A stretch of 64,000 bases of DNA, taken from the NCBI GenBank assembly GCA_010671905.1, contig JAAHII010000001.1, positions 5,580,001-5,644,000 on the forward strand. Reading direction: 5' to 3'. The notes under the pieces were generated by a model, which saw only the letters and a list, made by a program, of their open reading frames with translations, was not told the DNA's origin and did not search any database. Within the stretch, counting starts at the first letter, position 1. Every line of letters begins with the position of its first letter. Made by a program: the position numbers and the translations under genes. The stretch is from Leptolyngbya sp. SIOISBB. GTDB taxonomy: Bacteria; Cyanobacteriota; Cyanobacteriia; Phormidesmidales; Phormidesmidaceae. Positions 57,668-62,286 of the stretch are shown here, one piece after another.

Positions 57668-58151
57668 ATATTGAGGATTGCGACTAAAACTTTGTCCAGC
57701 ATTCCTAGAAATCCGGTGTAAAAAAGTAGCAAAACTTACGATTTGCCTGGGGATTATGCTTGATCCGCATTGAGTTGATGCGTTAATCGAAATTCACTTA
57801 TCCGCAAACGCTCAATTCTTTACATTGTGCAAATAATGAGTTTCTTAGGGTGATTTACCATACTCATTGCGCCAAGATTCGTTTCCTCTTTAGTACTTTT
57901 TGCGGTGATATTTGCAGGTTAATCTTTGATACCACACCAATCACTCTTTGAAACAGAGTCTCTGCCTTGGTTAGGTGGTTATTCAACACTAGAAAGACGT
58001 GGGCTCGTCAGAAAAGTTCCAAAAACTAAGCTTAATTCTAGCTTAACTATCTCAAAAGCTTATCTTTGGGTTTCGTGGCGTTGTTTTTAATCTTGAACCC
58101 TTAAGTTACACGGTGGTTTTGAGTTTTGATGACTCCACGGAGTGTGCTGTT
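57668..58151. other. Region upstream of the phosphate-binding protein gene
   Basis: It carries the Pho-box-like array at 58031-58071. The rest (57668-58030) is AT-rich with no supported gene. Confidence 0.5.
58031..58071 (+). promoter_or_regulatory. Pho-box-like tandem array
   Basis: Eight-base units repeat every 11 bases: CTTAATTC (58031-58038), CTTAACTA (58042-58049), then weaker CAAAAGCT (58053-58060) and CTTTGGGT (58064-58071). The first two fit the cyanobacterial PhoB/SphR consensus CTTAACCT with three-base spacers. It lies about 80-120 bases before the pstS/sphX start; a TAATCT just downstream (about 58087) could be the -10. Confidence 0.65.
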
Positions 58152-59063
58152 ATGTTCGCAAATAAGTTTAAATTTGCTGGTGTTATTGCACTGGCTGCAA
58201 CTGTCGGTCTAGTAACTGCGACCTCTTCCCAGGCGCAACGAGAAGGTCTGATCCAAATTGATGGTTCCAGTACTGTCTTTCCGGTTTCTGAGGCAATGGC
58301 TGAGGAGTTCATGGCTGCGAATCCGGGTTCTCAGGTCGTGGTTGGCGTTTCGGGAACTGGCGGCGGTTTTCGCAAGTTTTGTTCCGGTGAGACGGATATT
58401 TCTAATGCGTCTCGTCCCGTCAAGGATGAAGAATTAGAGGCCTGTGCTGAGAACGGGATTGTGCCGATCGAGCTGCGAGTCGGAACTGATGCTCTGACAG
58501 TTGTTACCTCGGTTGAGAACGACTTCATTAGCGATATCTCCACGGAGGAGCTGAATGCAATCTGGGCTCCTGAAGCTGAGGGCACTATCACTCGCTGGAA
58601 CCAGGTAAACTCGGCTTGGCCGAATGCACCCATTGGCTTATTTGGCCCTGGTACGGATTCCGGTACCTTCGACTTCTTTACGGATGAAATCAATGGTGAA
58701 GAAGGGGCTAGCCGGGCTGACTATACCGCTAGCGAAGATGACAACATCATCGTTTTAGGAGTATCTCGTGACCCTAATGCTCTGGGTTATTTCGGTCTAG
58801 CCTACTTCCTGGAAAATCAGGATACCTTGAAGGCATTAAGTGTTGATGGCGTCGATCCGACTCCTGAGAATGCCAAGAGCGGTGATTATTCCCTCGCTCG
58901 TCCGTTGTTCATCTACGTTAGCCCAGCCTCTCTGGAGAAGCCTGAGGTGCGCGCATTTGTCGAGTTCTACCTAGAAACGGCTCGCGATACTGATCTCATT
59001 ACCGAAGTGGGCTATGTGCCGATGCCTGAAGACGTATACGACGAGATCTTAGGTAGCCTCTAA
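58152..59063 (+). CDS. PstS/SphX-family phosphate-binding protein
   Basis: A periplasmic phosphate-binding protein. 303 aa from ATG 58152 with a signal peptide (MFANKFKFAGVIALAATVGLV to SSQAQ). The ligand motifs are DGSSTVFPVSEAMAEEF, GVSGTGGGFRKFCSGETDISNASR and GPGTDSGTFDFF. The absence of pstC, pstA and pstB downstream suggests a stand-alone SphX-like protein. The Pho-box-like array upstream fits phosphate-starvation control. Confidence 0.92.
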   Translation: MFANKFKFAGVIALAATVGLVTATSSQAQREGLIQIDGSSTVFPVSEAMAEEFMAANPGSQVVVGVSGTGGGFRKFCSGETDISNASRPVKDEELEACAENGIVPIELRVGTDALTVVTSVENDFISDISTEELNAIWAPEAEGTITRWNQVNSAWPNAPIGLFGPGTDSGTFDFFTDEINGEEGASRADYTASEDDNIIVLGVSRDPNALGYFGLAYFLENQDTLKALSVDGVDPTPENAKSGDYSLARPLFIYVSPASLEKPEVRAFVEFYLETARDTDLITEVGYVPMPEDVYDEILGSL

Positions 59064-59478: not shown

Positions 59479-60327
59479 GTGGAAACGTTAGAGAAACGAG
59501 AGCTCCCTGAACAACTTCCGCAGACTAAATCTGGTGGTCAAAAATGGCGTTGGCAATGGTTGCTTGCTCCACTAATGAGCTTATCGATTTTTTTTCATAT
59601 TGCGCTGCTGTTCGTGCCACTGCCAGCACCAGTACCGCTTGCAGAAGAAGACATTGAAGAAGAGATTTCTGAGGAGGAAGAAGCCCCAATCGATATCTTG
59701 GCGCTATCTGACATTGACGTACCTGAGCCCCCATCAGAGCCACTGCCAGAATCACCTCAACCGCCCGAAACCGCTGCCCCGCCGCCAGATGCCGTGCCGC
59801 CACCGCCCGATCCAAACCAGGTGCCTGAAACGTTGCCAGAATCGCAACTGCCAGAAGAAACAGGACTCGAAGAAACGCCCCCTACTAACACTTTCGACCC
59901 CGCTCGCCAGCAAGCCCTCCTCGACCAAACTGGGGGGATTAACTCTGAGTTCGACCAGACACAAGACTTTCCACTTTATGCGTGGAATCCAGTTAAAGAG
60001 CCGGCAGCCTATCTGGCTGGGTGGGAGCCTCAAAGGCTTAGCTGCTTTTTTAGCTTTATCGATGAAATGAATTATGACCTTGATCCACGGGCTAACCGAC
60101 TTAAGTATTTGACGCGTAATTATGGGTTAATCGTCAATGAAGATCTGCCCAGAACGTTTCCCGGTCAAGAAATTGTTCCACAGCCTGACGGATACTGTGG
60201 TGAAGACTTCTTCGTGATTAACGAAAATGGCGTGCCTGCAGGTGTCTATGTTTCTGCTATTGGGGTTGGGGAAGGAAATCCGCCAGCCAATGTCATCCTG
60301 GTATTTTGGGTTGAAGACCCTCGGTGA
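59479..60327 (+). CDS. TonB-like protein with proline-rich linker
   Basis: 282 aa from GTG 59479. There is one membrane helix (about residues 27-48) containing S-x-x-x-H (SIFFH), the motif TonB uses to couple to ExbB-ExbD. An acidic and proline-rich linker (about 52-138) spans the periplasm. The C-terminal domain (FDPARQQALLDQ, then AGWEPQRLSCFF, YCGEDFF and ANVILVFWVEDPR) is shared with the end of the next protein, not the classic TonB-C domain. It probably acts as an energy transducer or anchor in the envelope. No exbB or exbD lies nearby. Confidence 0.65.
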   Translation: METLEKRELPEQLPQTKSGGQKWRWQWLLAPLMSLSIFFHIALLFVPLPAPVPLAEEDIEEEISEEEEAPIDILALSDIDVPEPPSEPLPESPQPPETAAPPPDAVPPPPDPNQVPETLPESQLPEETGLEETPPTNTFDPARQQALLDQTGGINSEFDQTQDFPLYAWNPVKEPAAYLAGWEPQRLSCFFSFIDEMNYDLDPRANRLKYLTRNYGLIVNEDLPRTFPGQEIVPQPDGYCGEDFFVINENGVPAGVYVSAIGVGEGNPPANVILVFWVEDPR

Positions 60328-60441
60328 ACATCACTGATTGGTTTATCGTCATACTGGTTAACTCTCATGGGAGAGCACTCCAGCGTCTTGTTTTGCTCAT
60401 TTTGAACGCCATCACTTTGGGTCCCAGGAGTTATAGAAACG

Positions 60442-62286
60442 GTGTCTTTCCAATTACCTAAAAAGAAACCTGCTTGGTATTTTTTACTGGCTCCGATGTT
60501 GTTGGCCTCGGTGGGTTTACATGCGCTGGTTTTGTTTGTGCCCACCGGGCCTGCAGAAGAGTCTCTATTACCACCGCCTGATCCCGAGGAAGACGGGGTG
60601 GCGGTGATTAAAATTGACGCTCCACAATCTAGTGCAACCGCAGCTTCAGCTAATGCTGGTACAGTCAAGACAGCGCCGCCAGCTAATGCCCAAGCGTCGC
60701 GCACGGGAAGTTCGGCGAACGCAAACAGAGCTCAGGCTGCTGGACAAAGTAGCAATAGTCGTCCCACTAGCAGCAGTACAACTAACTCAAGCACGACGGG
60801 ACCGATACCCAACTTTTCAACCTCAGGTCAGGTCAATAATCCTAATACTGAGACACCAACGGTGGGAGGTCGAGCGACTAGTGGCAGTGGTCGAACAACT
60901 GGCGTCGCAGTTCCCCCTGTGGGTCCTGATCCATTTGAAGAATATATTGAAGTCTTTAAGACTTACAATGCGGTCAAAATTTCGGCGGAAGTTGCTGCAG
61001 ATGATCGCAATACTTGGCTAGGGAGTCTTAGCGATCGCGGCCCTGAGTTCACGAGCCTAGAGATCGAACCGCTGAAGATTTTCGACCCGTTACCGTATGA
61101 AGCCAACATTTGTCTTCCTGGTACGCCTGAGGCAGCCCAGCTCTTGGTATTAGTTGATGCCGAAGGCAATCTAGATGAAGACCAGTATCAGCCCTTTCTG
61201 CAACGGACGGGATATCGGTCTTTTGATAATGCTGCTGCCGAAAAAATCAAGCAGCATGATTTCCCTGAAGGCGACATGCCTAGAGCTTACCTAGTCGAAA
61301 TTGCCGTGGATTATGATGCAGCCGACTGTGACTGGCCGCCTCAGGTGGAAAAGTTGCCTGACGAGTATTTCACCGTTCTAGATAACTATATTGGGCCAGC
61401 CCTCACAACGCCTGCTGACAGCAAAGCGGCTCAAGAAACCTGGCTTGCCTCGCTTGCTGACAATGATGAGCTTGAGCTACCGGTTATGGATGAACTAGCG
61501 GCTGAAGACTTTGAAGACTTTGAATATGAAGTGCCTTATCCCTTAGAGATTTGCCTGCCCTTGGCCCCGAAAGATGCGAAGTTTGGCGTAGTCCTACAGC
61601 CTGATGGCAAATTAAGCACGGAACCGGTGATGGTGCGCTCAACGGGATATCAAAATTTTGACGATCGCGCCCGCGAACTCGTGACGGATTTTCAATTTCC
61701 GACAGCTGATGAAACACACCTCTTAGTCGTCATAGTCCCGGTGGACTATAACTCCACTAACTGTCAGCCTCTCGATTCAGACTCGTTTGATGTACCAACG
61801 ACAACCAGCCGCACCACCGCCAATGATGAGGCTGTTCCTGAGACGGATACAGCGATCACCTTTGACCCAGCTCAGCAGACCACCCTTTTAGAAAAGGGTC
61901 GACAGCAGGTAGAAGCCGATTCGGTAGGGAGTTTGAATACTCAATTGGCCTTAGCAGCTGCGGCTTTAGAAGCCGGTTGGCCTGCCGCAGTTGACCGCAG
62001 TTGCTTTTTGGCTGATATCACTACCGAATCATTCATACCGGTAGAGGCGGCTGCAGACGCGTTGGTGATGTCAGAAGATGTTGAGTGGGTGCCTACAACA
62101 CTGTCGCGTTTGTATCAGACCGAGGCTGCTGACGCTGGCGAATATTGCGGTGCGCCCCTGATCACCTTGTCAATTGACAACGCCGCGCAACTCTTTGCCT
62201 CCACCATTCCGTTTGGGACGGGTGGGGCCAATACTCTGGTCGTTCTTTGGACTGCTGATCCGCGGGGGGCTAAACCTGCAGACTGA
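60442..62286 (+). CDS. TonB-like protein with two TonB-C-like repeats
   Basis: 614 aa from GTG 60442. A membrane helix (about residues 12-34) repeats the neighbour's LAPxxxxSxxxHxxxLFVP pattern. A Ser/Thr/Asn/Ala-rich linker of about 120 residues follows, then two homologous domains: one with LQRTGYRSFDNAAAEKIKQHDFP, the other with VRSTGYQNFDDRARELVTDFQFP, each like the end of TonB. The C-terminal domain (FDPAQQTTLLEK, AGWPAAVDRSCF, YCGAPL, ANTLVVLWTADPR) is shared with the upstream protein. It lies 114 bases after it and is probably in the same operon. Confidence 0.7.
   Translation: MSFQLPKKKPAWYFLLAPMLLASVGLHALVLFVPTGPAEESLLPPPDPEEDGVAVIKIDAPQSSATAASANAGTVKTAPPANAQASRTGSSANANRAQAAGQSSNSRPTSSSTTNSSTTGPIPNFSTSGQVNNPNTETPTVGGRATSGSGRTTGVAVPPVGPDPFEEYIEVFKTYNAVKISAEVAADDRNTWLGSLSDRGPEFTSLEIEPLKIFDPLPYEANICLPGTPEAAQLLVLVDAEGNLDEDQYQPFLQRTGYRSFDNAAAEKIKQHDFPEGDMPRAYLVEIAVDYDAADCDWPPQVEKLPDEYFTVLDNYIGPALTTPADSKAAQETWLASLADNDELELPVMDELAAEDFEDFEYEVPYPLEICLPLAPKDAKFGVVLQPDGKLSTEPVMVRSTGYQNFDDRARELVTDFQFPTADETHLLVVIVPVDYNSTNCQPLDSDSFDVPTTTSRTTANDEAVPETDTAITFDPAQQTTLLEKGRQQVEADSVGSLNTQLALAAAALEAGWPAAVDRSCFLADITTESFIPVEAAADALVMSEDVEWVPTTLSRLYQTEAADAGEYCGAPLITLSIDNAAQLFASTIPFGTGGANTLVVLWTADPRGAKPAD

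Follow-up and report, generated by a model that had tools for sequence, protein, structure and literature searches.

Two neighbouring cyanobacterial genes with a common terminal domain suggest an overlooked way of powering simple-nutrient uptake

The general view is that phosphate and other small ions diffuse across the outer membrane through porins. Why should a gene for a phosphate-binding protein then be followed by two genes for TonB-like proteins? The question is raised by a stretch of 64,000 nucleotides (the window) from the cyanobacterium Leptolyngbya sp. SIOISBB, in which two tandem genes, here called A and B, lie directly downstream of a gene of the PstS family. Their products have a C-terminal domain in common, to which the name END is given here, and relatives of the two genes stand next to genes for the import of phosphate, sulfur compounds, metals or iron, a pattern which suggests that simple nutrients may be taken up with a source of power so far overlooked. 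The genetic linkage of END genes to phosphate import is well supported by comparison of gene neighbourhoods, and A and B are, on balance, probably TonB-like couplers dedicated to phosphate import, belonging to an importer-specific family driven by ExbBD. Coupling to the motor, which genomic comparison likewise supports well, and service to the adjoining importer are what we infer from the anchor, linkage, co-occurrence and phylogeny described below.

Gene A (59479-60327, + strand) encodes 282 amino acids and gene B (60442-62286, + strand) 614, both from a GTG start, and both reading frames are open over the coordinates assigned to them in an earlier note made from this DNA alone. Each product begins with a hydrophobic transmembrane helix containing the SxxxH motif of TonB to which the note had drawn attention, at S36-H40 in A (59584-59598, + strand) and at S23-H27 in B (60508-60522, + strand). 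The linkers differ in chemistry as it had described, being acidic and proline-rich in A and rich in Ser, Thr and Ala in B; in B, two TonB-C repeats precede the terminal domain. END occupies residues 137-282 of A (59887-60324, + strand) and 467-610 of B (61840-62271, + strand), as delimited with a hidden Markov model of the homologue alignment. That the two proteins have a common C-terminal domain, as claimed, is seen in the alignment of their C-terminal parts (BLASTP E 5e-7, 25% identity), and the core of the C-terminal motifs quoted in the note is conserved when 17 homologous domains are aligned. With gene A as the only query, a contig search returned no relative. The named sources of gene B relatives are Halomicronema, Oscillatoria sp. 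CS-180, an unclassified cyanobacterial metagenome-assembled genome and Leptolyngbya sp. PCC 6406, the last of which encodes PstS, two END proteins and a B-type protein at locus L104.

A 31-row END profile finds matches in 139 of 388 genomes of the class, representing 62 of 159 genera; an earlier, narrower profile of 17 rows had matched 9 of 339 genomes of the phylum. The smallest END-bearing genome is 3.2 Mb, among matching genomes at least 90% complete. Of 74 END proteins, encoded at 64 loci, 70 have the motif [S/A]xxxH within a hydrophobic helix at the N terminus (Ser in 54, Ala in 16), the four exceptions being two proteins without a clear helix, one without the His and one that is too short. 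Unusual architectures were also seen: in L057 (10091-10627) END stands directly behind the anchor, without a linker, in L060 (7376-7936) it stands behind an apparent signal peptide, and L097:3687-4190 is another END that is either linkerless or behind an apparent signal peptide.

Neighbours within 8 kb were counted at a first set of 39 END loci, taken from the profile match table without sight of their surroundings (a fortieth region, with a wrong coordinate, was dropped), and at 40 control loci, placed at round-number coordinates of 11 genomes in which END also occurs. PstS was found near END at 30/39 loci vs 0/40 controls (p 4e-14), ExbB/ExbD at 26/39 vs 1/40 (p 3e-10) and a Som-type porin at 10/39 vs 0/40 (p 4e-4), although some of the loci are of the same genus and so not independent, and many rows are close relatives. 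PstS and Exb genes occurred together at 21/39 loci vs 0/40 controls. When all 64 END loci are taken together, 50 have a Pst gene (S, C or A) within 8 kb, 37 an Exb gene and 10 a Som gene, and nine have neither Pst nor Exb. Three relatives (L058, L059 and L060) possess a whole ExbB-ExbD-ExbD-PstS-A-B cluster, which in L060 includes an additional END gene between A and B; other families often have ExbB-ExbD, a facing END gene and PstS-PstC-PstA-PstB. The phosphate gene, which the earlier note had taken as a hint of nutrient uptake, was therefore a better guide than its wording allowed, the association being conserved across cyanobacteria far above controls. A lipoprotein-like gene is also found near END in 10 of the 64 loci, for example at L058:13637-14383 and L083:9618-10478, the latter matching Pfam DUF4333.

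Phosphate is not the only substrate represented. A further set of 20 loci was drawn from 15 genomes in each of which END is matched at least twice. An ATP-binding cassette (ABC) importer of phosphate, sulfate, sulfonate, zinc/manganese-type metal or iron lies within 8 kb at 37/39 loci of the first set, 17/20 of the further set and 2/40 controls, both of the latter being of zinc/manganese type; the classes beyond phosphate were defined after the loci had been viewed, and the controls were searched with an identical set of queries. By class, the first and further sets hold 30 + 6 phosphate, 3 + 3 sulfate, 1 + 4 sulfonate, 3 + 1 metal and 3 + 4 iron loci, where a locus can count twice. Linkage to sulfate and ZnuA importers alone was not significant in the first set (6/39 vs 2/40, p 0.15) and gained weight only because of the further loci and the END tree. 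Sulfate-binding proteins (L141, L156) and sulfonate-binding proteins (L222, L223, L229) score above NCBIfam cut-offs. The metal-binding proteins include a Pfam ZnuA match (L165), and zinc and manganese models compete for them below cut-off. The ferric-iron binding protein was first labelled by eye and matches NCBIfam models below threshold only, the best of these being 2-aminoethylphosphonate; two of the iron-type proteins align with cyanobacterial iron-binding proteins in the PDB (2pt1, 2voz) at E 1e-125 or better, and in three of the five iron rows of the tree the label comes from a FutB-like permease and from nothing else.

The END tree largely follows importer type. On 93 rows, neighbour type changes 15 times, against a mean of 45.7 after shuffling and a value as low in 0/200 shuffles, a clustering that near-copies inflate. 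All 21 ENDs beside classical PstS form a single clade (98/92), as do the B-type ENDs (100/98). One clade (99/93) unites the sulfate and sulfonate ENDs and includes a single unlabelled row, and another (99/94) holds four of the five iron ENDs and two rows without a label; ENDs of the metal type are dispersed, and those of the SphX type occur on several branches. END genes of the iron clade adjoin a polynucleotide phosphorylase gene in L218, L226, L233, L234 and L163 (identified by NCBIfam in L226 and by eye in the rest). The clustering by importer type bears on an envelope-maintenance role like that of Tol, in which ExbBD and END would preserve the envelope under nutrient stress and take no part in transport. 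The END-type ExbB and ExbDs do score best in NCBIfam to TolQ and TolR, far below cut-off, and loss of TonB2 in Anabaena is reported to cause outer-membrane defects resembling those of Tol mutants (PMC8597729). Maintenance would not lead one to expect paralogues next to importers of phosphate, sulfur, metals and iron, nor a tree that largely follows the importer, and we regard this explanation as improbable.

A coupler would need a motor. ExbB and ExbD, for which the earlier note had proposed a search of the genome, are present in five and six copies, respectively. One set, consisting of ExbB, ExbD1 and ExbD2 at C1:7394119-7395787 (L048), is of the type found beside END: END-linked ExbBs are 56-92% identical to its ExbB, and three other ExbBs of the same genome that were compared are 37-38% identical to it. 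Over 388 genomes, END and END-type ExbB (called at a best E<=1e-75, a cut-off chosen after seeing the values) are both present in 128, END only in 11, ExbB only in 35 and neither in 214, which places END-type ExbB in 128 of the 139 END-bearing genomes. Relatives of A and B are thus linked to a single ExbB subfamily, accompanied by one or two ExbDs. The only control locus with Exb genes, L189, itself encodes an END-type ExbB, 68% identical to that of the window genome. An END-linked ExbB is split into two open reading frames at L136:6293-6956, by a frameshift or an assembly error, and this probably explains why genome G097 counts as END-only.

The conserved membrane Asp of ExbD, which corresponds to Asp25 of E. 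coli ExbD, is present in 41 of 53 collected ExbDs, linked or not, and is replaced by Asn in seven and Thr in five. Of 12 tandem-ExbD loci examined, 11 pair one copy bearing the Asp with one lacking it, and in L162 both copies have it; a thirteenth locus with two ExbDs, control L189, stands outside this count. The single ExbD of L079 has Asn. This suggests that the tandem ExbDs may form a hetero-ExbD motor in which only one site can be protonated. Copies without the Asp include L048:4653-5066 (G000:C1:7394652-7395065) and ExbD1 of L055, L058, L059 and L060; Asn versions occur in L136, L138, L147, L154, L155, L168 and L079.

Are A and B then simply TonB proteins? The tandem TonB-C-like repeats that the earlier note had seen in B are borne out by modelling. 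Repeat 1 (residues 161-305; 60922-61356, + strand), modelled as strand-strand-helix-strand, and repeat 2 (residues 306-452; 61357-61797, + strand) are about 145 amino acids each and 29% identical (E 4e-13). Foldseek gave no match at E<=0.001 with a model of the repeats and END (pLDDT 78.8, pTM 0.63). On this model, each of the ten best VIA rows places a TonB C-terminal domain on repeat 2, led by that of Neisseria TonB (Z 6.0, root-mean-square deviation 2.4 over 75 residues), and rows 11 and 12 (FusB and Salmonella TonB) fit repeat 1 at Z 4.3-4.4. Sequence profiles match the repeats only below threshold (Pfam TonB_C, E 0.011; TIGR01352 for repeat 2). As modelled, gene B carries TonB-C folds, and the genome thus has both such a fold and ExbB/ExbD, the joint absence of which the note had named as telling against its TonB idea.

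END itself is a different matter. The note had not recognized it, and profile searches agree: Pfam and NCBIfam models gave no match for gene A or for END in the proteins tested, and the END profile found no PDB sequence at E<=1. By hhalign, END and the TonB-C repeats match with a probability of 0.2%, so that END is not recognizably TonB-C by sequence. An AlphaFold2 model of END of A, from 15 alignment rows (pLDDT 82.8, pTM 0.81), has helices and then a strand-rich alpha/beta unit finishing in four long strands. Foldseek returned nothing for this model at E<=0.001. The best VIA row reaches Z 4.2 (root-mean-square deviation 4.3 over 101 residues), a score at which unrelated folds are tied (BamC C-terminal domain, alpha subunit of glycyl-tRNA synthetase), with no consistent family; no TonB entry is listed among them, which says nothing for or against a TonB-C fold. 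With Foldseek empty at this threshold and the VIA rows middling, assignment of END to a known fold was dropped.

The description of A and B as tandem TonB-like proteins therefore stands for their anchors and for the repeats of B, and is not supported if two TonB proteins in the classical sense are meant: no TonB-C is detected in gene A by sequence, and the nearest Plug-domain match is 242 kb off. Gene A as a classical TonB was rejected on sequence, there being no Pfam or NCBIfam TonB match beside the hhalign result. A role for A and B as classical TonB proteins, acting on TonB-dependent receptors for phosphorus compounds, could appeal to the two repeats and to the 14 Plug-domain receptors of this genome, but the receptor cluster, at 422-470 kb, surrounds a different ExbB/ExbD pair with an ExbB only 38% identical, and tested END proteins without such repeats give no TonB-C match in Pfam or NCBIfam. 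This is the least probable of the explanations weighed here. A further TonB-C-like protein of 493 amino acids, with an SxxxH anchor and without END, is encoded about 48 kb downstream (G000:C1:5690665-5692146; L047:6666-8147).

The gene immediately upstream of A (58113-59063, + strand) encodes a PstS-family, SphX-like periplasmic phosphate-binding protein, which matches Pfam PBP_like_2 and TIGR02136 (E 1.5e-87; 293.6 bits, cut-off 206.6). Its true start is likely to be the ATG at 58152, since homologues start MFAN. The order in the window is this gene, A, B and then a methionine aminopeptidase-like gene, read by eye, on the opposite strand. Pho-box-like direct repeats with an 11-nt period lie at 58031-58060 (+ strand), about 50 nt before the start of the reading frame and 90 nt before the likely ATG, and have the top score of 127,940 strand-positions in the window; this agrees with the earlier note's phosphate-binding protein gene with a Pho-like operator. 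The scan used a cyanobacterial Pho-box consensus, scored out of 16. A score of at least 14/16 is reached in 28/53 PstS upstream regions vs 5.3% of 548 control genes, and upstream of 10/38 ExbB, 9/73 END and 1/12 Som genes. Gene order and this site suggest possible Pho control of PstS-A-B. A promoter scan, with fewer sites than shuffles, and a terminator scan, with 7 against a mean of 4.3, were not used.

So close an association with the binding protein might also mean signalling, with END proteins informing the motor, or Pho regulation, of how loaded the binding protein is, and importing nothing. The linkage is tight with or without permease genes, and six PstS-END pairs (L078, L140, L142, L146, L150 and L170) have no PstCAB or ExbBD within 8 kb. 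The conserved motor anchor and long linker suit the transmission of force, however, and Exb genes are near in more than half of the 64 loci; signalling is very improbable.

If A and B transmit force, END must act on something. Those relatives that encode an outer-membrane protein next to their END genes have there a Som-type porin of the SLH/OprB kind (NF033921, named 'iron uptake porin' by NCBI). We know of no indication that Som-type porins are energized. A Som gene lies 1.6-1.9 kb from END in six phosphate loci (L139, L143, L148, L151, L157 and L215), within the pst cluster or beside pstS, and in all of these except L157 it stands between PstS and PstC; in L165 it is 216 bp from a metal-linked END. 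The four Som genes tested (L139, L141, L165 and L223) are all above the NF033921 cut-off. Direct gating of Som is conceivable on these grounds: END would contact these substrate-selective porins, the motor would open them or drive ions through, in the manner of TonB with its receptors, and the ABC genes would be neighbours by co-regulation only. Such gating might also find support in a review stating that Synechocystis inorganic iron uptake involves both ExbB-ExbD and porins (PMC7676907), and in the accumulation of periplasmic inorganic phosphate (Pi), dependent on the proton-motive force, in marine Synechococcus, Prochlorococcus and SAR11, which is reported without a dedicated transporter and is unexplained by Pi-specific transport (PMC7250820). 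The authors of the latter propose ion pairing, and neither 'TonB' nor 'ExbB' occurs in the main text. Som is nevertheless absent from most sampled END neighbourhoods, the window included, and the linkerless END of L057 could hardly reach the outer membrane. Som gating as the whole explanation is rather unlikely.

As the physical partner of END, the binding protein is favoured over the Som porin on such comparisons, because END nearly always has importer genes close by, which is not true of Som, because the END tree largely follows importer type, and because the L057 protein is too short to reach the outer membrane. Docking to a binding protein would have a precedent in E. coli TonB, which binds FhuD and BtuF in the periplasm. 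Som is an occasional but significant neighbour, and this keeps porin gating in play. We propose that A and B would act as dedicated couplers as follows. ExbB-ExbD, here the unlinked set at C1:7394119-7395787, would use the proton-motive force to move A and B, and END at their tip would engage a step of phosphate uptake: it would dock the cognate binding protein (PstS/SphX) or else act on a Som-type porin, so that the step lies in the periplasm or at the outer membrane. When phosphate is scarce, the motor would in this way favour its capture or its passage into the periplasm, and END paralogues would do likewise for sulfate, sulfonate, zinc/manganese-type metals and ferric iron. More tentatively, and with rather more doubt than belief, the END systems may be a family of Ton-like systems driven by the proton-motive force, in which END couples ExbBD to an ABC binding protein, a Som porin or both and actively loads simple ions into the periplasm through porin-type channels, without a TonB-dependent receptor; in some lineages the motor would be asymmetric, only one of two ExbDs keeping the membrane Asp.

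Several observations weigh against this proposal. In the window no ExbB/ExbD, PstCAB or Som gene adjoins A and B; the matching ExbB set lies about 1.75 Mb away, its exbB has no good Pho-box-like site (12/16), and the nearest of the five Som matches above cut-off in this genome is about 0.96 Mb distant. In the first set, no Exb gene lies within 8 kb at 13/39 loci and no Som gene at 29/39, and the anchor or the linker is missing from a few END proteins. Loss of the Asp from one ExbD of most pairs is not needed by a simple motor model. The post hoc definition of the importer classes beyond phosphate counts on the same side. The END profile has no match in the small genomes G063 (1.7 Mb), G075 (2.5 Mb) and G073 (2.8 Mb), few rows below 3 Mb being listed, and because END is absent from these few it is not yet to be offered as an explanation for the marine picocyanobacteria of PMC7250820. 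In addition, neighbourhood and co-occurrence are evidence of functional linkage, not of contact or of direction of action.

The END system is a named, deletable set of genes, present in many cyanobacteria, that could power the uptake of such ions. If this is true, Ton-type energy coupling extends to ordinary inorganic nutrients, and a well-known machine gains a domain. The system may also be relevant to the part that ExbB-ExbD plays in the uptake of inorganic iron by Synechocystis (PMC7676907). In the literature searched, outside which most subscription papers lay, no phosphate-linked TonB/ExbB system is described.

Among known systems, the Pst importer (PstS/SphX-PstCAB) is represented around END genes, by a PstS-family gene directly upstream of A and by whole adjoining pst clusters in relatives. 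That importer as usually described has no ExbBD or TonB-like component, at least in the available part of PMC12260270. Som-type porins are encoded beside END in some phosphate, sulfur and metal loci; in Crocosphaera, Pi depletion induces som, sphX and pstS (PMC12260270). Anabaena SjdR, TonB2 and TonB4 are likewise cyanobacterial TonB-like proteins; TonB2 and TonB4 are dispensable for siderophore uptake, and, unlike END, no phosphate link is described for them and PstS goes unmentioned in the accessible text (PMC8597729). Tol-Pal (TolQRA) belongs to the same motor superfamily, with TolQ/TolR as the best, sub-threshold matches of the END-type ExbB/ExbD, but the linkage to importers is a feature of the END system. 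With TonB-ExbB-ExbD, A and B have in common the SxxxH anchor helix, a long periplasmic linker, a dedicated ExbB/ExbD and, in B, repeats of TonB-C fold. They differ in a terminal domain that departs from TonB-C in sequence, in being tied to importers of inorganic nutrients of the ABC type and not to TonB-dependent receptors, and, in relatives of the window, in having paired couplers and paired ExbDs, one of them without the membrane Asp. The END system may thus be a variant of the Ton system with a possible, categorically new use.

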